Assembly (NCBI GenBank): GCA_028286245.1
Contig: JAQBRY010000001.1
Span: 1-64,000 of the forward strand
Origin: Candidatus Saccharimonadota bacterium
GTDB lineage: Bacteria; Patescibacteriota; Saccharimonadia; Saccharimonadales; UBA4665
Length of the DNA stretch: 64,000 bases
Direction of reading: 5' to 3'
The notes under the pieces were generated by a model. That model ran no database searches. It saw only the letters and a program-made list of their open reading frames with translations, and was not told the origin of the DNA. The translations under genes and the position numbers were made by a program. Positions 8,481 to 48,072 of the stretch are shown here, piece after piece (position 1 is the first letter of the stretch; each line of letters starts with the position of its first letter).

Positions 8481-9173
8481 CTAGCAGACGCCGTCTTGGC
8501 AGACGTTAACGGTTTGATCACCCATCATCTTGATAGGATGCGTTTCGTGCCAAGCCGCTTGCAGAGCCTGGCTGAAAATTGGCACACCCTGAGCACCAGA
8601 AATACCGTAGGTATCATCAATTACAAAAAAGGGCACGCCCTGTATGCCATAGCCTGCAGCCTTTGCAATGTCAGCATGAACTTCCTGACTATAATCATCA
8701 CCTACAAGTACAGCGCGAGCTTTCTTGGTGTCTAGGCCAACTTCTTTTGCCAATCTGCACAATGTGTCAACGTCAGCAATATTTTGCGCCTCAGTAAAAT
8801 AGGCTGCATAGAGTCGTTCAAACATTTGAACCTGTTTGCCATGCGCCGCCGCAAAATGAATTAAACGGTGCGCGTCAAAAGAGTTGATGGGTTTGGCATG
8901 GTCCAGGTCGTAGTGTAAACCTTCGGCGGCGGCGCTAGCGGTAACTTGCTGGTTTAAACTTTTGGCTTGCTGCACGGTCATACCTTTTTTCTTGGCAAGC
9001 ATTTGGTGCAGTGTATCCTCCGAATGTTTTGGCGCCGACGGATCGAGTTCAAAGCTGTGATACACAACGGTTATATCATCTTTGTGACTGAAGTTTTTTA
9101 GGGCGCTATTAAACTGGGTACTGCCAATGTAGCAAAATGGGCACACAATGTCGGACCAAATATCTACTTTCAT
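8481..9173 (-). CDS. DsbA-family (FrnE-like) thiol oxidoreductase
   Basis: A 230-residue thioredoxin-fold protein with the active-site motif C11-P-F-C14 right at the N-terminus, a large helical insertion, and GVPFFVIDDTYGISGAQG, which holds the cis-proline loop and the FrnE signature. There is no signal peptide, so it is cytoplasmic, as FrnE proteins are. A second Cys pair (CQDGVC) ends the protein, as in several FrnE-type enzymes. It probably exchanges disulfides with a small thiol or proteins. This window also encodes a candidate thiol-synthesis pair (42298-44232), a possible partner, though that link is speculation. Confidence 0.88.
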   Translation of the reverse strand: MKVDIWSDIVCPFCYIGSTQFNSALKNFSHKDDITVVYHSFELDPSAPKHSEDTLHQMLAKKKGMTVQQAKSLNQQVTASAAAEGLHYDLDHAKPINSFDAHRLIHFAAAHGKQVQMFERLYAAYFTEAQNIADVDTLCRLAKEVGLDTKKARAVLVGDDYSQEVHADIAKAAGYGIQGVPFFVIDDTYGISGAQGVPIFSQALQAAWHETHPIKMMGDQTVNVCQDGVC

Positions 9174-37179: not shown

Positions 37180-37674
37180 ATGGAGCCATCATCAAATAAT
37201 AAGCCAAAGTTTATAGCCATAGCCGGCATAGTTGCCCTAGTGGTGATAGCGGCCGTTATTGCGCTCAGTAAGGGGGGCTCTAAACAGACTGCCGCCGCCG
37301 ATCCGGTTGATTCTAGCACTTCGCAGCAATCGGCCAGCAGCACAGCCACCTCGGATAACGCTAACAGCACCAGCACCGCCTACAAAGACGGTACGTATAC
37401 AGAAACCGGCACCTACACCTCGCCTGGCGGCACCGAATCACTCAAAGTGACCGTTACACTCGCCGGCGGCGTGGTTACAGACACCTCGGCAGTTGGCAGC
37501 AAAAGGAGCGATGACTCTACCTTTTACGCCGGCCAATTTATCGACAACTACAAATCACTAGTTGTTGGTAAAAAGATTAGCGATATTAAGCTCTCCAAGG
37601 TTTCCGGCTCATCTCTGACGCCCATAGGCTTTAATGCAGCACTCACCAAAATCAAAACCGACGCCCAATCCTAA
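37180..37674 (+). CDS. Membrane-anchored FMN-binding domain protein
   Basis: 164 residues: membrane anchor (11-29), Ser/Thr linker (35-66) and an outer FMN_bind domain (68-163) with KDGTYTETGTYTSPGG. The C-terminal VSGSSLTPIGF at 141-151 occupies the place of the flavinylation motif (D-x3-SGA[ST]); Ser145 is the likely FMN-carrying residue, though the Ala is Ser here. The adjacent ApbE would attach the FMN, and the RnfD-like reductase downstream would reduce it. GGGGAG precedes the ATG. Confidence 0.85.
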   Translation: MEPSSNNKPKFIAIAGIVALVVIAAVIALSKGGSKQTAAADPVDSSTSQQSASSTATSDNANSTSTAYKDGTYTETGTYTSPGGTESLKVTVTLAGGVVTDTSAVGSKRSDDSTFYAGQFIDNYKSLVVGKKISDIKLSKVSGSSLTPIGFNAALTKIKTDAQS

Positions 37675-38548
37675 GTCGGCAGTAGCACCCAGCCAATTCC
37701 GGTTTGATGCCATTGGTACGTCCTGGACAATTGACCTATATCAGCCCGCTCCGGCCGGCCTGCAGCAAAAGATCCTAGACCGCATAGCCGAGTTCGACAA
37801 AGCATATTCCCGCTTTAGAGCGGACTCGCTCATAACAACCATCAAACAGCGGCCAGGCACCTACCAGCTGCCAGCCGACAGCCTTCCTCTTTTTAACTTG
37901 TATCGTCGCCTCTACGACCTCACCGAGGGCAGCATGACACCGCTCATCGGCAGTGTGCTTGAGCAGGCTGGCTACGACGCTGAGTACTCCTTAGAGCCCG
38001 GTGAGCTTCATGTGCCACCCACCTGGGACAAGGCTTTGCGGCTAAAAGGGCAGACGCTCACCACCCTCCAGTCGGTAACTATTGACGTCGGTGCGGCCGG
38101 TAAGGGGTATTTACTAGACATTATTGGCGAACTGCTACGCGGAGCGGGGGTTACTGCTTTTTGCCTTGACGCCGGTGGCGATATTTTAATCCAAAACCCC
38201 AACGCCCTGACGATCGGCCTCGAGAACCCGGACGACCTTACGCAGGTTATTGGCGTTGTCAGCATTACAAACGGCAGTATCTGCGGATCAGCCGGCAATC
38301 GGCGCAGCTGGGCAGGCTACCAGCACATTATTAATCCACACTCACTGGTTAGTCCCACCGACATCAAGGCCGTATGGGTGGTAGCCCCAACTGGCTTAGT
38401 AGCCGACGCCCTCACCACCGCGCTCTATTTTGCCAAGCCGGAGCTTCTACAGGAGCATTTTGCCTTCAGCTATGCCATACTAAGCACAGACGGTTCATTA
38501 CGCTACTCAGCTAACTTTCCCGCCGAATTCTTTGAAACTCACTCATGA
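37634..38548 (+). CDS. apbE: FAD:protein FMN transferase (ApbE)
   Basis: 304 residues. FDAIGTSWTIDLY, DVGAAGKGYLLDII, CLDAGGDILIQ and HIINPHSL with ADALTTALYF are the flavin- and Mg-binding blocks of ApbE, which transfers FMN from FAD onto Thr or Ser of partner proteins. No lipobox or signal peptide is seen at the chosen start, although the family usually acts outside the membrane; an N-terminus hidden by the 41-base overlap with the previous gene cannot be excluded. The target is most likely the FMN-binding protein beside it. Confidence 0.92.
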   Translation: MQHSPKSKPTPNPKSAVAPSQFRFDAIGTSWTIDLYQPAPAGLQQKILDRIAEFDKAYSRFRADSLITTIKQRPGTYQLPADSLPLFNLYRRLYDLTEGSMTPLIGSVLEQAGYDAEYSLEPGELHVPPTWDKALRLKGQTLTTLQSVTIDVGAAGKGYLLDIIGELLRGAGVTAFCLDAGGDILIQNPNALTIGLENPDDLTQVIGVVSITNGSICGSAGNRRSWAGYQHIINPHSLVSPTDIKAVWVVAPTGLVADALTTALYFAKPELLQEHFAFSYAILSTDGSLRYSANFPAEFFETHS

Positions 38549-40023
38549 CATATATCGCCAAAAAACTTAACCTTATTACCATGTATCAGCTCCTTATCTA
38601 TGGGCTGAGCATCCTGGCGGCACTGAGTCTGATTTTTAGTGCCACCGGCTACCTAACGCTGAGCTTTAGTAGTCTGATCTATTCACTCGCCCTCCTGCTG
38701 TTGGTTTGTTACCTTACAAACAGTCTCCTGGCACGAGCTTGGCACGTCATACCGGCGCGGGGTTCATGGCTGATTACAGCCCTTATTTTGTATTGCATAA
38801 TGGCGCCATCTACCTCTGTAAAGATTGCCTTTGCCAGCGCTCTCGCCGGTGTGCTTGCCATGGCCTCCAAATATATTATTGCCAGGAATCAACGCCATCT
38901 GTTAAACCCGGCGGCTGTCGGAGCGGTAGCCGTCAGCCTGATGGGGCTCACTGCGACTACCTGGTGGATTGGCAGTCAGGTCATGGTACCCTATGTGATT
39001 ATTTTGGCCCTAACCGTCGTATACAAGCTACGCCACACTGCGCTATTTGTAACCTTTGTGCTCGTGAGCGTGGCCATAACATTGCTCGTTACAGACCGCA
39101 ACGTCACAACCTTGGGAGATGCGCTGCACGTCTTAATTATTTCCTCACCGTTATTTTTCCTGGGCGGCGTTATGCTCACCGAACCAACAACCTTACCAGT
39201 GCAAAAGAGTATGCAGCTGGTGTACGCCGGCCTGGTCGGCCTGCTCTTTACCATTCACGTACGCATATTTGGGACTTTCTTAGCGCCAGCTATTGCGCTG
39301 TTACTGGGGAATGTATTTAGCTACGCACTCAATCCCAAGCAAAATGTTACACTAACGCTCAAAAAAATAACTGAGGTAGCACCGGATATCTTTCGACTGA
39401 CTTTTAGCCCGCATAAAAAGCTCATCTTTAAAGCCGGGCAATACATGCAGTGGACGCTTGCCAGCAAGGACAATGACGGCCATGGCAACCGCCGCACCTT
39501 TACCATTGCCTCGTCGCCAACCGACGACGAAATTGTGCTGGGTATCAAAACTGGTGTGCCGCGCAGCAGTTTTAAAAAGGCACTGCTTGGGCTTAATACC
39601 GGCGATGTCATTCAGGGCGGCTACGTGGCAGGGGAGTTTACACTACCATTTAATGCCAAGCAGCCGCTGGTTTTTCTGGCCGGTGGCATTGGCATTACAC
39701 CATTTATAAGTATGCTGCGCTATCTTATGGCCACCAACGATAAACGTCCGGTCACGCTCTACTACTTTTTGACGGCCACCACACAAGTCTTTGATCAAGC
39801 TACGTTGGACTTGGCAGCTGAACACGGCATCGTTACTAAATTGGTAGTCGGTAGCCGCACTGAGCAGCTGCAACACGCCACCACGCTAGGCATTGCCAAG
39901 CACCCAAATGCAACCTTTTATATTTCTGGTCCGCCGGCCATGGTAGAAACTTTTACCGGCTACCTCCACGAACAGGGCATCAAGCGCTCCGCCATCAAAA
40001 CCGACACCTTTACCGGCTACTAA
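38545..40023 (+). CDS. RnfD/NqrB-like membrane domain fused to a ferredoxin-NADP reductase domain
   Basis: 492 residues. The N-terminal 265 residues form about ten membrane helices, with SKYIIARNQRHLLNPAAVG resembling the RnfD/NqrB block; the place of the SGAT flavin site reads MLTEPTTLP. The C-terminal part (about 270-492) is an FNR-like module: RRTFTIAS binds FAD, LAGGIGITPF and YISGPPAMV bind NAD(P)H. It would move electrons from NAD(P)H into the membrane and on to the exported FMN protein. Overlaps apbE by 4 bases (ATGA). Direction of flow and final acceptor are inferred. Confidence 0.85.
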   Translation: MTYIAKKLNLITMYQLLIYGLSILAALSLIFSATGYLTLSFSSLIYSLALLLLVCYLTNSLLARAWHVIPARGSWLITALILYCIMAPSTSVKIAFASALAGVLAMASKYIIARNQRHLLNPAAVGAVAVSLMGLTATTWWIGSQVMVPYVIILALTVVYKLRHTALFVTFVLVSVAITLLVTDRNVTTLGDALHVLIISSPLFFLGGVMLTEPTTLPVQKSMQLVYAGLVGLLFTIHVRIFGTFLAPAIALLLGNVFSYALNPKQNVTLTLKKITEVAPDIFRLTFSPHKKLIFKAGQYMQWTLASKDNDGHGNRRTFTIASSPTDDEIVLGIKTGVPRSSFKKALLGLNTGDVIQGGYVAGEFTLPFNAKQPLVFLAGGIGITPFISMLRYLMATNDKRPVTLYYFLTATTQVFDQATLDLAAEHGIVTKLVVGSRTEQLQHATTLGIAKHPNATFYISGPPAMVETFTGYLHEQGIKRSAIKTDTFTGY

Positions 40024-40030
40024 ATCGCGA

Positions 40031-41701
40031 TTACTTGTTTGCGTATTGTTGGCCGATGGCGACGGTTTGGCCGCCGAGCTTGTCGGCAAAGTAGCTGTCG
40101 TGAGAGATGTAGATGACGGCGCCGGTAAAGTCAATGAGTGCGTTTTCGAGCTCTTCGATACTCGGCAGGTCAAGGTGGTTGGTTGGCTCATCGAGGATCA
40201 GCAGCTTAGGATCATTTATGAGCATGCGGATTAGCTGAAAGCGGGCCTTCTGGCCACCGCTTAAGCGGCTAATCATAACCGCTCCATCGGTCTGGGGGTT
40301 AAACAAATAGTCGCTGAGGAGCTGCTTAATTTTTTGATCGTTCACGGGCAGGTTGTTTTCCGATAGCACCTGCTCGAGCGCGTCGTGCAGTGTAAAGTCC
40401 AGGTAGCGGTCGGCAATTTCTTGTTGGTACAAACCGTAATTAAGCTCGCGTTCAACCATAATTCGGCCACTGTAGCGTTCGGCGGCAGCCGGGACGTTCT
40501 TCATGTTAGCCACAATGGCGTCTACAAGAGTGGTCTTACCGGCACCGTTACGACCGTGCAGGCGCACGCGCTCGCCTTCGCGCAGGCTAAAGCTCACGTC
40601 CTCAAACAGCGGCTTATCGTAGCCTAAGCTGAGCTTATCAACTTGTACCAGCAGTCGGTCAGCACCCTCCACGTTAGAGGCAGTATCAACTTTGATATTC
40701 TGTGCCTTGTACTTTTGGTAGGCAGTCGTCATTTTAGTACCCAGATCCTGGGCAGATTCTTGGTCGATCCAGAACGATGGCTTTTCGGTTTGCTGCAAAC
40801 GCTCCAGCTCGGCTGCCGCTTTATTTTCGGATGATTTAAAACGCTTAATAGTACCCGGGTCGTGCGAGCGTTCCTTCATTTTACGGAAGCGAATCACGTC
40901 GTTTTTAAGGTTATCGATGCGGCGCTGCGTTAAATCGTACTCATTTACCTGCGAAGTGATCTGGTTTTTATTAATACTTAAGTACTGCTTGTAATTTCCT
41001 TTAAAGGTAAAGGCCCGGCCATCACGGATTTCAACAATCTTGTCGACCGTTTGCAGCACATCACGGTCATGGGTAATAACCAGCACAGCTTCTTGGGCTG
41101 CTTCTAGCCAGCGGATAAAGGCCTGCTTAGCAACGTAGTCCATGTGGTTGGTAGGCTCGTCAATCAGGGCCAGGTTGCCACGGGCGCGCTGCACCTTTAT
41201 AAGCTCGACCATGCGCTTTTGGCCGCCGCTCAAATCCTCTAGTTTTGCCTGCAGCTTGCTAGGGTCCAATTGGTAATCCTGCAGAGCCTGTTCGAGCTCG
41301 TCCTCTATCTGGAAGTAGCCGAGTTGGCTAAAACGGTCGAGGGCATCACTGTAACGCTGCAGCTTTCGTTCGTTACTGGCCATGTGCTCCGGGTAGGTGG
41401 TAATAATTTTTTGGAGCTCAGCAAACTCAGGCAGGTCGCCCTGCACGTATTCAAGTACTGTTTTGGATTCATGGCCGTGGTGCTCCTGCCGACTGGCGAT
41501 AATGGTGGTACCACGCTTAAGTTTTATTTCGCCCTGAAAATCGGTGTCATCACCGGTAATCATATTAAACAGGGTGGACTTGCCGGTACCATTACGGCCG
41601 ATTAGGCCAATTTTTTCACCGGGCTCAATACTAAACGACAGGTTGTCGTAAAGTTGTTTATCTCCAAAAGATTTTTCGGTAATGTCAATTGCAAGTAGCA
41701 T
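40031..41701 (-). CDS. ABC-F family ATPase
   Basis: 556 residues with two ABC domains and no membrane segment. Domain 1: GRNGTGKST, LSGGQKRMVE, LALIDEPTNHMD. Domain 2: GRNGAGKTT, LSGGQKARFQ, LLILDEPTNHLD. The charged linker between them contacts the ribosome in this family. ABC-F proteins act in translation (EttA-like) or protect ribosomes from antibiotics; which applies is not visible. Convergent with the flavin operon. TACAAT lies 8 bases before the ATG on the minus strand. Confidence 0.93.
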   Translation of the reverse strand: MLLAIDITEKSFGDKQLYDNLSFSIEPGEKIGLIGRNGTGKSTLFNMITGDDTDFQGEIKLKRGTTIIASRQEHHGHESKTVLEYVQGDLPEFAELQKIITTYPEHMASNERKLQRYSDALDRFSQLGYFQIEDELEQALQDYQLDPSKLQAKLEDLSGGQKRMVELIKVQRARGNLALIDEPTNHMDYVAKQAFIRWLEAAQEAVLVITHDRDVLQTVDKIVEIRDGRAFTFKGNYKQYLSINKNQITSQVNEYDLTQRRIDNLKNDVIRFRKMKERSHDPGTIKRFKSSENKAAAELERLQQTEKPSFWIDQESAQDLGTKMTTAYQKYKAQNIKVDTASNVEGADRLLVQVDKLSLGYDKPLFEDVSFSLREGERVRLHGRNGAGKTTLVDAIVANMKNVPAAAERYSGRIMVERELNYGLYQQEIADRYLDFTLHDALEQVLSENNLPVNDQKIKQLLSDYLFNPQTDGAVMISRLSGGQKARFQLIRMLINDPKLLILDEPTNHLDLPSIEELENALIDFTGAVIYISHDSYFADKLGGQTVAIGQQYANK

Positions 41702-41759: not shown

Positions 41760-42305
41760 TTAAACCGCGGCAGTTTTTGACTTTTTAGGCAAGGCCTCGT
41801 AACTACTCAGCAGCAAGAGGGCCAACGGATCGATAGGTACCGGCTTGGGTTCTTGGTCGCCTAGGAGCAGGCAGATAATGCCGGCTTCGAATATGATAAT
41901 GGTGTCAAAAATAGGAATGTAGGTTCCTCGCAGGCCACCAAAGGTTGGTGAGAATATGCTGTACACGGCTGTAGCGAGCGCGGCAAAGCCTACTGCACGC
42001 AGCACAAAGGCAAAAACCGGCGAACGGAGCCAGCCGTACAACCATAAAAAGGAGAGGAGACTCAATCCTAACCCAACGATAGCGATCGGTAGATCCAGAC
42101 GGATTAAGCTGGACATATTTTGCTGAAAGAGAATGTATGAGGCGCTAATAACTCCGACTGCTGTACTTAAAAAACCAACTACTGACTGCATAAGCGACCC
42201 TCCGTCTACAAGAACTGAATAATGTATGCCTCTAGCGTAGCCTGTGCTGATTAGCCACGCTGTCAAAATTATTACAATGGTTGTTCTTATTTGTACATTA
42301 GCCAA
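41760..42305 (-). CDS. Hypothetical membrane protein, about 181 aa
   Basis: Not recognised. About five membrane helices and a hydrophilic C-terminus (GDQEPKPVPIDPLALLLLSS). The start is uncertain: TTG at 42305 would overlap the 3' end of the MshC-like gene by 8 bases, while the frame is open up to 42386. I see no ribosome site that decides it. Probably co-transcribed with the MshC-like gene. Confidence 0.55.
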   Translation of the reverse strand: MANVQIRTTIVIILTAWLISTGYARGIHYSVLVDGGSLMQSVVGFLSTAVGVISASYILFQQNMSSLIRLDLPIAIVGLGLSLLSFLWLYGWLRSPVFAFVLRAVGFAALATAVYSIFSPTFGGLRGTYIPIFDTIIIFEAGIICLLLGDQEPKPVPIDPLALLLLSSYEALPKKSKTAAV

Positions 42306-43464
42306 GGCCGAGGAGGTTGAGCGCCGTCTTTGCGGGAGAACAGTAGTGCTTGGCATCCGGCACGGCAGGCTGAGCCGAGGCGGCAAAATTATGGAGCGCG
42401 TGATAAATTTGATGCGTATCCAAATCGTCGTCGAGAGCCCGGCGAATACTTTCTAACAGTTCGCTAGCAGCCGATTCGCTACAGGTAAGCAGCGCCTTTT
42501 GTAGCCCGGCATGTAGCTCGGCGGCTTCTTCTAAAAATTCCGGCTGCCACTCGCCACCCGTGCGATAGTGGTACCTGAGTAGCGCCAGGCGAATAACATT
42601 TGGCGCATGATTATCGAGCAAGTCTTTTGCAAAAATTAAATTACCCAGCGACTTACTCATCTTTTCTCCTAGATACAATAGCGGCGCTACATGCATCCAG
42701 TGCTTGGCTAGTTGCGGCTGCCCGAGGGCTTTTGACTGAGCAACTTCACACTCGTGGTGCGGGAATATCAGGTCATCGCCGCCACCATGGATGTCGAACG
42801 GTGTTCCTAGGAGTTCGTGAGCCATAACCGAGCACTCGATGTGCCAACCCGGCCGGCCGCGGCCAACGACGCTTTCCCAAACCGCCGGGTCGGCCGGGTC
42901 AGTAACGCCGTGCCATAACAAAAAATCGAGTGGTGCGCGCTTGCCGGGACGTGCCGGGTCGCCGCCACGACGCTTCATAAAGGCCAGCTGCAACCGTTCA
43001 CTAAAACCGCTAAACGTTCCAAAGGCAGGATCACTACTGACATCAAAGTAAATATCATCTTCCAGACTGTAGGCTACCCCCACGTCGAGTAATTTTTGGA
43101 CAGCGGCAGCCATCTGATCGATATAACTCGACGCCAGTGGCTCGGCATAGGCCGGCCGAAAGTGCAGTAGTTCCATAACGGATTGAAACGAGGCCGTCTC
43201 TTCGGAAGCCAATTGGGTATAGTCGAGGCCGAGTTCAGTGGCCCGCTTAAATATCGGATCATCAACATCGGTAATATTACGCACCAAACGCACTTCGTGG
43301 CCCAGGTCTTCTAAGCGGCGCTGCAATAGGTCGTAGGTCATAAAAGTGGTGATGTGGCCTAGGTGAGCCGAGTCATAGGGCGTGATGCCGCAGGTATAGA
43401 GACCGACGACGTGGCCGGGATTAAACTCCTGATACTGTTGACTGGCAGTGTTAAACAGACGCAT
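42298..43464 (-). CDS. mshC: MshC-like cysteine ligase (CysRS paralogue)
   Basis: 388 residues, near the length of MshC (about 410) and shorter than CysRS (about 460), with the anticodon-binding end reduced. It has CGITPYDSAHLGH where CysRS has CGPTVYD-x2-HIGN, and RGGDPARPGK and GRGRPGWHIEC, blocks I know from mycobacterial MshC. Counting from ATG 43467, Zn ligands Cys26, Cys212, His237 and Glu241 and the KMSKS loop (269-273) are kept. MshC activates Cys and joins it to GlcN-inositol in mycothiol synthesis. A deacetylase of the MshB superfamily is divergent across 36 bases. A truncated CysRS is the main alternative. The ATG at 43464 fits the 12-base promoter rule. Confidence 0.75.
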   Translation of the reverse strand: MRLFNTASQQYQEFNPGHVVGLYTCGITPYDSAHLGHITTFMTYDLLQRRLEDLGHEVRLVRNITDVDDPIFKRATELGLDYTQLASEETASFQSVMELLHFRPAYAEPLASSYIDQMAAAVQKLLDVGVAYSLEDDIYFDVSSDPAFGTFSGFSERLQLAFMKRRGGDPARPGKRAPLDFLLWHGVTDPADPAVWESVVGRGRPGWHIECSVMAHELLGTPFDIHGGGDDLIFPHHECEVAQSKALGQPQLAKHWMHVAPLLYLGEKMSKSLGNLIFAKDLLDNHAPNVIRLALLRYHYRTGGEWQPEFLEEAAELHAGLQKALLTCSESAASELLESIRRALDDDLDTHQIYHALHNFAASAQPAVPDAKHYCSPAKTALNLLGLG

Positions 43465-43467
43465 CAT

Positions 43468-43497
43468 TTTATTGTAGCAGTCGGCTGCTACAATAAA
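43468..43497. promoter_or_regulatory. Palindromic divergent promoter of the thiol-type gene pair
   Basis: Arms 43468-43480 and 43485-43497 are perfect 13-base complements around TCGG. Each arm contains TACAAT: plus 43489-43494 (12 bases before ATG 43501), minus 43476-43471 (12 bases before ATG 43464). The two start codons are exactly symmetric about the centre, so both genes should respond to the same factor. Confidence 0.65.
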
Positions 43498-43500
43498 GAT

Positions 43501-44232
43501 ATGAACGAAAATCCTTTGCTGCTACAGCCAAAGATTGTCCTAGGTGTAGCCGCCCATCCGGATGACTTAGATTTTGGGGCCGCCGGAACCATGGCAAAGT
43601 TTATAGCCGGTGGCGCCCGGGTGTACTACTTGCTTGTAACCGACGGCGGCAAGGGAACAGAGGACCGTACCATAACTAGTGCCGATCTAGTAGCGCAGCG
43701 ACAAACCGAGGAGCGTAATGCCCTTAAGGCCATTGGTGGCAATCCGAACGATGTCGCCTTTTTAGGCTATCCGGATGGCACGTTAGAGGTTACGCAGGCC
43801 GTTAAGCGTGACATCGTGCGCCACATTCGCACCATCAAACCCGATGTCGTGGTTACCCTGGACCCATCTATTATTTACATGGCCGAGCGGGGCTTTATAA
43901 ATCATCCTGACCACCGAGCGGCTGGGCAGGCCACACTTGACGCCGTCTTTCCGCTGGCCCGGGATCATCTCAGCTTTCCTGAACTACTCGCCGAAGGTTT
44001 TGAGCCGCACAAAACCCCAACTGTTCTTCTGACGGCTTTTGGTGGACCAGGTAATTACCTGGTAGATATCAGTACGACTATTGATCAAAAAATAGCGGCG
44101 CTAGCCGCCCATCCCAGCCAGATCCCCGATATTAAAAGCACTGCTGAGTTGCTACGAGAATTTGCCCGCAAAGCCGCAAAAGGCAGCGGCTACGAGTACG
44201 CTGAGTCGTTCAACAGAATCGATATTCGGTGA
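43501..44232 (+). CDS. PIG-L/LmbE-family deacetylase (MshB-like)
   Basis: 243 residues from ATG 43501. AAHPDDLDFGAAGT holds the Zn-binding His-Pro-Asp-Asp motif, and NHPDHRAAG supplies the third ligand. The superfamily removes acetyl groups from GlcNAc linked to inositol (MshB), malate (BshB) or phosphatidylinositol (PIG-L). Placed head to head with a MshC-like ligase and sharing its promoter, a role in making a GlcN-containing thiol is likely. MshA, MshD and a phosphatase are not in the window. Substrate is inferred. Confidence 0.85.
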   Translation: MNENPLLLQPKIVLGVAAHPDDLDFGAAGTMAKFIAGGARVYYLLVTDGGKGTEDRTITSADLVAQRQTEERNALKAIGGNPNDVAFLGYPDGTLEVTQAVKRDIVRHIRTIKPDVVVTLDPSIIYMAERGFINHPDHRAAGQATLDAVFPLARDHLSFPELLAEGFEPHKTPTVLLTAFGGPGNYLVDISTTIDQKIAALAAHPSQIPDIKSTAELLREFARKAAKGSGYEYAESFNRIDIR

Positions 44233-44403: not shown

Positions 44404-44414
44404 ATGGCAAATAA
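44355..44414 (+). other. Possible leader-peptide ORF in the RRM gene leader
   Basis: GTG at 44355, 7 bases after GGGGAG (44342-44347), opens 19 codons and ends at TAA 44412-44414, 11 bases inside the RRM gene in another frame. It runs through the hairpin that hides the RRM ribosome site, so its translation would open that site. Confidence 0.35.
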
Positions 44415-44712
44415 ATTATTCGTAGGCTCACTGGCATACACAGCCACCGACGATGACTTGCAGCAATTTTTTGCTCAGGTTGGTACTGTTGTATCAGCTA
44501 AGGTCATCATCGATCGCGAAACCAACCGCTCTAAGGGCTTTGGTTTTGTTGAGATGAGCACTGACGACGAAGCTAAGGCCGCTGTTGACCAGCTCAACGG
44601 CAAGGACCTTAACGGTCGCCCAGTTGCGCTGAGCGAAGCTCGCCCACAGGCACCACGCGAAAACCGTTCATTCGGTGGCGGCGGCGGTGGTGGTGGCGGT
44701 AACCGCTACTAA
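44404..44712 (+). CDS. RNA-binding protein with one RRM domain
   Basis: 102 residues. RNP2 is KLFVGSL and RNP1 is SKGFGFVEM, with the full beta-alpha-beta-beta-alpha-beta RRM over residues 1-80; the C-terminus is a poly-Gly tail ending NRY. It resembles the cold-induced Gly-rich RRM proteins of cyanobacteria and other bacteria and probably binds RNA single strands. The leader hairpin suggests control at translation, maybe by temperature or by the protein itself. Ends in a strong terminator. Confidence 0.93.
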   Translation: MANKLFVGSLAYTATDDDLQQFFAQVGTVVSAKVIIDRETNRSKGFGFVEMSTDDEAKAAVDQLNGKDLNGRPVALSEARPQAPRENRSFGGGGGGGGGNRY

Positions 44713-44730
44713 TCCATCCTTGTGATGTAA

Positions 44731-44759
44731 AAACCTCCCGAGCAATCGGGAGGTTTTTT
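44731..44759 (+). terminator. Intrinsic terminator of the RRM gene
   Basis: AAACCTCCCGA (44731-44741), GCAA tetraloop, TCGGGAGGTTT (44746-44756), then a T run to 44759. The best terminator in the window. Confidence 0.92.
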
Positions 44760-45155: not shown

Positions 45156-45827
45156 ATGCAGTTTATACAGACCACGGACCGATCACTGGGTGCAGCTGCC
45201 CTCCGAACTCGACTTATCAAAGAACTCAACGAAGGTCTCAAAGTACTATGGCTGGTATCGGGTGGCTCTAATATTCCACTCAGCGTTGCCGTCATGAACA
45301 CCCTCCCGGAAGCACTCACGAGCAAGCTCACCATTATGCTCATAGACGAACGGCACGGTCCGGTTGGACACGCTGACTCTAATGGCAGTCAATTGTTAAT
45401 TGCCGGCTTTGACCATAAACAGGCACACATAGTGCCGGTGCTGGTGGGCGATCGAACGCTAGAAGAAACCCGGGAGTCCTATGACACCGCCGCCAGGATG
45501 GCCTTTACTGATGCCGACATAGTGATTGGTCAGATGGGAATAGGGGTAGACGGCCACATAGCCGGCATTTTGCCCGGCTCGATTGCCTTAGATTCTACGG
45601 ATTTTGTGGCTGCTTACACCACCGATGAATACGCCCGGCTCACACTGACTTCCCACGCCATCAAACGTTTAAATGCAGCCTATGTATTTGCGTTTGGCGA
45701 CGACAAGACAGCCACCCTTGAACGCCTAGAGAACGAGACGCTACCCTATAGTGAGCAGCCGGCCCAAATTTTAAAAGAGCTTCCCGAAGTATATATATTT
45801 AACGACCTAATAGGAGATAAAATATGA
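45156..45827 (+). CDS. pgl: 6-phosphogluconolactonase
   Basis: 223 residues of the SOL/DevB type. WLVSGGSNIPLSV, LIDERHGPVGHADSN and GQMGIGVDGHIAGILPGS are the sugar-phosphate-binding blocks. It hydrolyses 6-phosphogluconolactone, the product of Zwf encoded two genes later. First gene of the pgl-gnd-zwf operon; its stop overlaps the gnd ATG (ATGA). Confidence 0.93.
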   Translation: MQFIQTTDRSLGAAALRTRLIKELNEGLKVLWLVSGGSNIPLSVAVMNTLPEALTSKLTIMLIDERHGPVGHADSNGSQLLIAGFDHKQAHIVPVLVGDRTLEETRESYDTAARMAFTDADIVIGQMGIGVDGHIAGILPGSIALDSTDFVAAYTTDEYARLTLTSHAIKRLNAAYVFAFGDDKTATLERLENETLPYSEQPAQILKELPEVYIFNDLIGDKI

Positions 45828-46729
45828 AGATAGCCGTACAGGGCCTTGGCCGAATGGGCATGCAAATTGTCCACAAAATTGCCGACAGCGAGCACACTGT
45901 TATTGCTCACAACCGCAGCAAAGACAAAATTGATGAAGCAGTTACGTTTGGTGCCATTAGCGCCTACGAAAAGCAGGACGTGCTCGACGCTTTTGGCAGC
46001 GATCAAGTTGTGCTGTGGCTGATGCTACCGGCCAACATCGTGGATGACCAGGTTGACGAGTGGCTAACACTGGTTCCGCAGGGAAGTATATTTATTGATG
46101 GCGGCAATTCGGACTACCGTTTAACCCGCAAATTATCAGACAAGATTGAAGCTAGCGGCAGCCATTTGGTAGACGTCGGCACCAGTGGCGGCGTTTGGGG
46201 CTACCAAAACGGCTTCTCTATGATGTCCGGCGCCAATAATAAGCAGGCTTTTGACGGCGTAGAGCCAATACTCAAGACGCTAGCTGCTCCAGAAGGGGCC
46301 TACAACTACTTTGGCCCATCCGGTTCCGGCCACTTTGTTAAAATGACGCATAACGCCATCGAGTACGGCATGATGGAGAGCTTGGCTGAGGGCTACCGTA
46401 TCCTCAAAGAAGGGCCGTATCCCGGCCTTGACCTGGCTGCCGCCGGTGAGGTTTGGCAACACCACAGCGTGGTTACTTCGTGGCTTAACGAGCTGTCCCA
46501 GTCAGCACTGGCCGAGAATCCTGAACTGGAAGGCATTGATGGCTACGTGGCCGAGAGCGGCGAAGCCCGCTGGACCCTCGAAACAGCCAAAGAACTCGGT
46601 ATCCCCATGCAAAGCATCCAGGCGGCCTTTGACGTCCGGATTGCCTCCCAAAACGGTGAGCAAAACTTTGCCACCAAAATGTTAGCTGCCATGCGCAATA
46701 AATTTGGCGGCCACGAGCTAAACAAATGA
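45824..46729 (+). CDS. gnd: 6-phosphogluconate dehydrogenase, short type
   Basis: 301 residues, the short form (usual long form about 470). GLGRMGMQIV starts the Rossmann fold, GTSGGVWGYQNG and KMTHNAIEYGMMES are substrate and catalytic blocks with the active Lys. It oxidises 6-phosphogluconate to ribulose 5-phosphate and CO2, with NAD or NADP. AGGAGAT precedes the ATG. Overlaps both neighbours by 4 bases. Confidence 0.94.
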   Translation: MKIAVQGLGRMGMQIVHKIADSEHTVIAHNRSKDKIDEAVTFGAISAYEKQDVLDAFGSDQVVLWLMLPANIVDDQVDEWLTLVPQGSIFIDGGNSDYRLTRKLSDKIEASGSHLVDVGTSGGVWGYQNGFSMMSGANNKQAFDGVEPILKTLAAPEGAYNYFGPSGSGHFVKMTHNAIEYGMMESLAEGYRILKEGPYPGLDLAAAGEVWQHHSVVTSWLNELSQSALAENPELEGIDGYVAESGEARWTLETAKELGIPMQSIQAAFDVRIASQNGEQNFATKMLAAMRNKFGGHELNK

Positions 46730-48072
46730 TCGACAGCGCACCCGTCCTAATTATTTTTGGCATTACCGGCGATCTTAGTAAGCGCAAGCTTTTGCCAGCC
46801 ATTTATCACTTGCTGAGCCAGGACCTACTGCCAAAAGACGTTAAAATTATTGGTACCAGCCGCCGGGAAATCTCACTGGACGAACTACTGAGCAACGTAG
46901 AGCTCTGTGTGCTAGAAGAGGACAATGTCTGCGACCCGGCCGGAATAGCCAAGCTACGGGCAGCTATGGAGGTCTTTAAGCTCGACCCGGTAAGTGACGA
47001 CAACTACACCGCGCTCAGCCAGCACCTCGACTCACTTGAGGCCCACGAGCGCATTTTTTACATGTCGCTGCCGCCGGTAGCCTACGCCCCGATTATTGAG
47101 CGCCTCTCCAAGCATGGCCTCAATGATAGCCGCAGCCGAATACTGCTGGAAAAGCCATTCGGTTACGATGAAAATTCGGCCCAGGAGCTCATCGACCTGG
47201 TAAGCGAGCACTACCACGAAGATCAAATCTATCGAATTGACCACTACCTAGCTAAGGAAACTGCTCAGAACCTGCTGACCTTCCGTTTGCACAATCCGAT
47301 TTTTACCGCGCTCTGGAATAGTGATCATATCGAACGTGTACACATCGAAGCCGCCGAAAAGCTCGGCATAGAAAACCGGGCTGATTTTTATGATAAAACC
47401 GGTGCGCTGCGTGACCTTATCCAGAGTCACCTCATGCAGCTGTTGGCCCTCACGCTCATGGATATCCCCAGCCATTTAAAGAGTCATGAAATTCACCTGA
47501 GCAAGCAATACTTTCTTGAACAACTAATGCCGGCCGATCCCAAGCAGGCCTTAAGAGCCCAGTATGATGGCTACCGTGATGCCGTTGGCAATCCGGCCAG
47601 CCCAACCGAAACCTACGCCCTAGTGCATCTAAAACACAGCGCCGAGCGCTGGCAGGGCGTGGACATCATTCTAGAAACCGGTAAGGCCTTACCAGAAAAA
47701 CACACTCGAATTATCGTGGAATTCAAAGCCCACGCCGGGCAACCGGCTAACCGATTAGTGTTTCAGGTTCAGCCAGATGAGGGGATAAGTTTAGATCTAT
47801 TCGTTAAAAAGCCGGGCTTTGACAATACCATGCAAAAAACAATGCTCGACCTTACTTACGAAACATCGTTCGGGGATGATAAGCATATTGACGCCTACGA
47901 ACGCGTAATAATGGACGCTATGCGTGCCGACCACGCACTTTTTGCCAGCGCCACCGAAGTCATGGCGACGTGGAGAGTATTGCAACCCATCCTCGACGCC
48001 TGGGAAAATAACAGCGACGGCCTAACCTTTTATCCTATGGGAGCAGTACCTGAAGCTACAGGCAACGTTTAA
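46726..48072 (+). CDS. zwf: Glucose-6-phosphate 1-dehydrogenase
   Basis: 448 residues. FGITGDLSKRKLLPAIY is the NADP site, RIDHYLAKETAQN the active-site His block, and GALRDLIQSHLMQLL a further signature. It makes 6-phosphogluconolactone and NADPH. With pgl and gnd it completes the oxidative pentose-phosphate branch in a single operon, giving NADPH and ribulose 5-phosphate. Its 3' end overlaps the convergent gene by 4 bases. Confidence 0.95.
   Translation: MIDSAPVLIIFGITGDLSKRKLLPAIYHLLSQDLLPKDVKIIGTSRREISLDELLSNVELCVLEEDNVCDPAGIAKLRAAMEVFKLDPVSDDNYTALSQHLDSLEAHERIFYMSLPPVAYAPIIERLSKHGLNDSRSRILLEKPFGYDENSAQELIDLVSEHYHEDQIYRIDHYLAKETAQNLLTFRLHNPIFTALWNSDHIERVHIEAAEKLGIENRADFYDKTGALRDLIQSHLMQLLALTLMDIPSHLKSHEIHLSKQYFLEQLMPADPKQALRAQYDGYRDAVGNPASPTETYALVHLKHSAERWQGVDIILETGKALPEKHTRIIVEFKAHAGQPANRLVFQVQPDEGISLDLFVKKPGFDNTMQKTMLDLTYETSFGDDKHIDAYERVIMDAMRADHALFASATEVMATWRVLQPILDAWENNSDGLTFYPMGAVPEATGNV

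Follow-up and report, generated by a model that had tools for sequence, protein, structure and literature searches.

A conserved head-to-head pair of an MshC-branch ligase and a PIG-L deacetylase points to a probable low-molecular-weight thiol route in a Saccharibacterium

The window, by which we mean the whole stretch of 64,000 nucleotides analysed here, belongs to a genome of 1.13 Mb on four contigs that is 94% complete and, among named organisms, most closely related to Candidatus Saccharibacteria. Two divergently oriented genes, one for a ligase related to MshC and the other for a PIG-L de-N-acetylase, lie in the following arrangement:

42298..43467, minus strand: MshC-like cysteine ligase, 389 aa (profile scores, tree, residues, model)
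43468..43500, no strand: divergent promoter gap, 33 bp (13-bp inverted repeat, -10-like elements)
43501..44232, plus strand: PIG-L de-N-acetylase (PF02585, AAHPDD and HPDH motifs, fold)
44404..44712, plus strand: RNA-recognition-motif (RRM) protein, conserved in relatives as a neighbour of PIG-L
44729-44758: terminator-like repeat between the RRM gene and pgl/gnd/zwf
45156..48072, plus strand: genes for 6-phosphogluconolactonase (pgl), 6-phosphogluconate dehydrogenase (gnd) and glucose-6-phosphate dehydrogenase (zwf)

The genes pgl, gnd and zwf belong to the oxidative, NADPH-making part of the pentose-phosphate pathway, and pentose-phosphate genes were found downstream of PIG-L in 19 out of 48 inspected loci, irrespective of whether the ligase was present. 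On the other side of the pair, a 208-aa ORF at 41760-42386 overlaps the 3' end of the ligase gene; it has no Pfam match and weakly resembles ORFs which L118 and L036 carry at the corresponding position. An ABC-F-like ATPase gene adjoins the MshC-type ligase in the window (40031-41701) as well as at L040, L041, L042 and L335, and such ligase-adjoining ATPases occur both in Saccharibacteria and in deep actinobacteria, but belong to visibly different subfamilies. Further away (37634-40023), a gene for ApbE, a flavin transferase, precedes one for a membrane protein that carries a ferredoxin-reductase-like NAD domain. Genes resembling these are located near the ligase/PIG-L pair in some relatives.

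The starts of the ligase and PIG-L genes are separated by only 33 bp (43468-43500), most of which is taken up by a perfect 13-bp inverted repeat at 43468-43497 (TTTATTGTAGCAG-TCGG-CTGCTACAATAAA). Inverted repeats with 13-bp arms and a loop of at most 10 nucleotides occur at four places in the window, this one included. Each arm contains TGCTACAAT, an extended -10-like element located a few bases before the respective ATG. A preliminary description of this DNA, made from the sequence, had assigned one shared promoter to the two genes; the common divergent gap holds, but the arrangement rather resembles two back-to-back promoters with TGCTACAAT directed toward each gene. Because this element is so close to both start codons, the two transcripts are predicted to be possibly leaderless. 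Similar -10-like elements near the start were seen by eye in relatives. A role of the palindrome as a conserved operator was discarded, as the repeat was not seen in the relatives.

MshC is the cysteine:GlcN-Ins ligase which Actinobacteria use for the antioxidant mycothiol. All three blocks named as MshC-type in the preliminary description (CGITPYDSAHLGH, RGGDPARPGK and GRGRPGWHIEC) are present in the ORF at 42298-43467 on the minus strand, and the MshC-like length attributed to it was confirmed, with 389 aa and no anticodon-binding end. The protein carries the PF01406 catalytic domain (302 bits), and its closest solved sequence is M. smegmatis MshC (8hfm/3c8z). Against the NCBIfam model for MshC (TIGR03447) it scores 377.8 bits, not reaching the cut-off of 485.1, which none of the sampled Saccharimonadia genomes passes, and against the model for cysS (TIGR00435) it scores 316.9 bits, below the cut-off of 340. 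With both models under their cut-offs, automatic annotation likely leaves this ligase unnamed or calls it cysS.

Investigating the phylogeny of 92 proteins (36 MshC-type and 56 CysRS; bootstrap reported as not fully settled), we observed that the MshC-type proteins split from all CysRS at 100/99 and that the window ligase is placed in the MshC clade, outside CysRS. The 17 Saccharibacterial ligases form a single clade (100/100), which joins deep actinobacterial MshC-type proteins at 95/94, while canonical MshC constitutes a separate clade inside the same MshC group. Since the ligase is nested in actinobacterial diversity, acquisition of the gene by transfer from Actinobacteria would be the simplest inference. 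The genome's own CysRS falls into a distinct saccharibacterial CysRS clade (100/99), and a full-length cysS encoding 468 aa according to the ORF list was found elsewhere in the genome, on C4 at about 60.5-61.8 kb. The preliminary description had tied a housekeeping role of the window gene to the lack of another cysS together with a placement inside CysRS, and on both counts we found the opposite. A housekeeping CysRS is ruled out by the tree, by the presence of another cysS and by the lack of an anticodon domain, and the gene at 42298-43467 is an MshC-branch ligase.

In M. smegmatis MshC, zinc is bound by C43, C231 and H256 together with the thiol of the substrate, whose amino group is contacted by T46 and T83, and the loop 44-GITPY-48 closes (PMC9736012). 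The counterparts in the window ligase are C26, C212 and H237, T29 and T66, and the loop 27-GITPY-31. In addition, HLGH is found at 35-38 and KMSKS at 269-273. At 10 out of 11 alignment columns separating MshC from CysRS, the MshC residue is the commonest one in Saccharibacteria, including P30 (V in CysRS) and G168 (R in 56 of 56 CysRS), and at one of the 11, position 6, the window ligase has N, the CysRS residue. The anticodon end is absent, the ligase comprising about 388 aa versus 450-540 in CysRS. The AlphaFold2 model of the ligase (pLDDT 86) has MshC 3c8z as its best match (Z 44.6, 372 residues, 2.3 Å) and aligns end to end with residues 18-411 of MshC; with CysRS 1u0b, Z is 40.5. The margin between the two is small, and the fold, being common to both, would not by itself settle the identity of the ligase. 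Compared with MshC (TIGR03447; 3c8z, 8hfm, 8hfn), the ligase is alike in clade, length, zinc ligands, GITPY, KMSKS, fold and the lack of an anticodon domain, and differs in its identity of only ~40%, in staying under the curated cut-off and in its occurrence in Saccharibacteria without detected MshA or MshD.

The divergent neighbour is of the PIG-L/LmbE type, as previously proposed, matching PF02585 over the cut-off with 99 bits and keeping the catalytic motifs AAHPDD (HPDD) and HPDH; ATG 43501 is a likelier start than the GTG at 43363 given in the mechanical ORF list. Its further description as MshB-like had to be given up, considering a score of 33.5 bits versus a cut-off of 224 and a position away from MshB in the PIG-L tree. 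The best NCBIfam score was obtained for BshB1 (83 bits, cut-off 182.5 not reached), followed by BshB2 (76 bits, cut-off 195 not reached) and Mca (47 bits, far below the cut-off). In a quick tree, the protein and several actinobacterial PIG-L proteins are located opposite MshB/Mca (98 SH-aLRT), and it lies outside the clade of actinobacterial MshB (L306, 412.6 bits). The rows L036 and L037 are wrongly labelled as ligase-negative in this tree, but this has no bearing on the placement of the deacetylase. The structural model (pLDDT 91) ranks diacetylchitobiose deacetylase (Z 28.7) before LnmX (27.9), BshB (25) and MshB (21). Profile score, tree side and structure ranking rule out MshB, and the deacetylase belongs with the diacetylchitobiose deacetylase/LnmX/BshB side of the PIG-L superfamily. 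Diacetylchitobiose deacetylase and LnmX are its best sequence and structure matches, from which it differs in being paired with a cysteine ligase. With the bacillithiol route (BshA, BshB, BshC) it shares the best profile score, that with BshB1, and a predicted product without an N-acetyl group, but the BshB cut-off is missed and the ligase is of the MshC type instead of bacillithiol's BshC.

Among 93 genomes sampled from the family of the window's genome, the ligase was detected in 18, the scores being bimodal (at least 325 bits versus at most 197 bits), while 0 out of 252 sampled genomes from other families of the class contained an MshC-like gene; the three best-scoring proteins from those other families (L015-L017) are placed among CysRS in the tree. 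PIG-L is present in 51 of the 93 genomes, comprising all 18 with the ligase versus 33 of the 75 others (Fisher p 6e-6, kinship not corrected). In 17 of the 18 ligase genomes, including that of the window and with G096 as the exception, the two genes are arranged head to head, and the retention of the same pair in so many genomes argues that the pairing is not due to chance. Moreover, the pairwise distances of ligase and PIG-L correlate (r 0.67, 0 out of 5000 permutations). Contamination of one bin is unlikely, because the same pair lies amid saccharibacterial genes in 17 genomes. As PIG-L genes without the ligase often retain the same pentose-phosphate neighbourhood, it appears likelier that an old pair lost its ligase several times than that the ligase was gained several times, and the presence of PIG-L in 33 genomes without ligase indicates that PIG-L can serve something else.

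A search for mshA and mshD, which the preliminary description had suggested, identified neither in the window's genome (94% complete): the best glycosyltransferase reaches 112 bits versus 462.5 for MshA and scores higher as glgA (glycogen-synthase) type, and no protein exceeds the MshD cut-off. De novo synthesis of mycothiol was consequently rejected. Inositol-phosphate synthase (ino1), likewise absent from the window's genome, occurs in 7 of the 18 ligase genomes versus 20 of the 75 others (p 0.39); it was dropped as a partner, since an early difference of 7/18 versus 0/9 was gone in the full family. The deep actinobacterium G368, which has a related ligase, encodes an MshA-like protein (390 bits) and an MshD over the cut-off. 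Visual inspection of the ORF lists revealed no glycosyltransferase beside the deacetylase in deep actinobacteria. MshC-type ligases are also found in Egibacteraceae/Nitriliruptorales-type actinobacteria (G349, with L159 and L301, and G350-G352), and as MshA and MshD over cut-off were not found in G349, an orphan MshC may exist in Actinobacteria too.

Directly after PIG-L, the relatives G282, G325, G329, G331 and G333 carry a gene for a small CxDC-type protein. The two of these proteins that were scanned score highest with the mycoredoxin family TIGR02200 (77 and 75 bits, cut-off 89.5), and the best solved match is M. tuberculosis Mrx1 (Rv3198.1, 2lqo). Besides remaining below the family cut-off, the small protein differs from Mrx1 in that the domain is often fused to a TrxR-like domain, elsewhere forming the N-terminus of a ~400-aa protein with a thioredoxin-reductase-like domain. 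Counting matches below 1e-14, a threshold set by eye at a score gap, and with kinship not corrected, mycoredoxin-like domains were present in 13 of the 18 ligase genomes versus 10 of the 75 others (p 2e-6), and within PIG-L genomes in 13 of 18 with the ligase versus 8 of 33 without it (p 0.001). The window's genome itself yielded no mycoredoxin-like match at E 1e-6. Examples of fusions of mycoredoxin-like and thioredoxin-reductase-like domains are L296:6093-7300, L297:7234-8526, L298:7795-9000 and L299:7317-8516; a separate gene for a glutaredoxin-like protein of 82 aa lies before each of them. In one Saccharibacterium, two F420-type luciferase-like oxidoreductase genes (L037:995-2858) stand beside a mycoredoxin-like gene and PIG-L. 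The window additionally encodes a DsbA-family protein with an N-terminal CPFC motif (8481-9173), possibly a further thiol-redox partner.

The reading we favour, with a probability of about two in three, is that the ligase joins cysteine to a deacetylated glucosamine glycoside to give a thiol resembling bacillithiol or mycothiol, the precursor being salvaged or otherwise made. The computations showed that the ligase belongs to the MshC clade, that its catalytic residues are intact, and that the two genes co-occur in a conserved pair; for the reaction, substrate, product and redox role of the ligase/PIG-L system we infer the following course. PIG-L would remove the acetyl group from a GlcNAc glycoside, leaving a free 2-amino group, and the ligase would form Cys-AMP at its zinc site, passing the activated cysteine on to the 2-amino group of the glucosamine glycoside under formation of an amide. 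The low-molecular-weight thiol produced in this way, Cys-GlcN-X, would lack a final N-acetyl group and in that respect be bacillithiol-like, and X would be inositol by analogy with MshC. As MshA was not found, the GlcNAc glycoside would derive from neighbours or be formed via an unrecognised glycosyltransferase. In relatives, the mycoredoxin-like protein, alone or fused to the TrxR-like domain, would reduce disulfides of the product with NADPH.

How far this can be narrowed down depends on the acceptor. Salvage of mycothiol precursors is a specific form of the favoured explanation and compatible with it: GlcNAc-Ins, GlcN-Ins or mycothiol fragments would be obtained from an actinobacterial neighbour, and PIG-L and the ligase would finish Cys-GlcN-Ins. 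Inositol and salvage fit the origin of the ligase within actinobacterial MshC and the missing MshA, and salvage is further favoured by the lack of a detected MshD in the window's genome and by the presence of both MshA-like and MshD proteins in G368; however, the MshC-like gene is confined to one family among those sampled (0/252 elsewhere) and the deacetylase is not of the MshB type, which leaves this form doubtful. Regarding the kinship of the deacetylase, other glycosides are equally possible as the source of X. PIG-L might deacetylate GlcNAc, chitobiose or fragments of the cell wall, and free glucosamine or a chito-oligomer would then be cysteinylated by the ligase, resulting in a thiol or a tagging product with no relation to inositol. 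The structural proximity of PIG-L to diacetylchitobiose deacetylase and LnmX, before BshB and MshB, and the missing association of inositol-phosphate synthase with the ligase point in this direction, yet the retained MshC-specific residues may hint at a similar acceptor, and we regard a different one as unlikely. Finally, the ligase could be a second, shortened cysteinyl-tRNA synthetase acting in translation or stress, in line with its PF01406 domain (302 bits) and a cysS score (TIGR00435, 317 bits) near the cut-off. This is extremely improbable for a protein that lies outside the CysRS clade at 100/99, has no anticodon-binding domain, coexists with a full cysS and is conserved in its pairing with the deacetylase.

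Returning to ligation onto a glucosamine glycoside, we tentatively propose a hybrid thiol route for this family of Saccharibacteria, in which a deacetylase of the BshB/chitobiose type would act together with an MshC-type ligase derived from Actinobacteria to yield the family's own Cys-GlcN-X from a neighbour's glycoside, and a mycoredoxin or a mycoredoxin-reductase fusion would keep this thiol reduced. Literature searches by title, with most subscription journals outside their scope, retrieved for Saccharibacteria and mycothiol only a paper that, judging by its title, deals with plant endophyte diversity, and no title on a low-molecular-weight thiol in the Candidate Phyla Radiation. If the hybrid route is true, no thiol route of this kind would have been described before for this radiation in the literature searched. 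The tiny, epibiont-type Saccharibacterium probably uses an amino sugar which it does not obviously build to form a small protective thiol, and the conserved pair, the plausible donor lineage and the redox partners render the question of which small thiol the ultra-small bacteria of the Candidate Phyla Radiation use testable with two purified enzymes.
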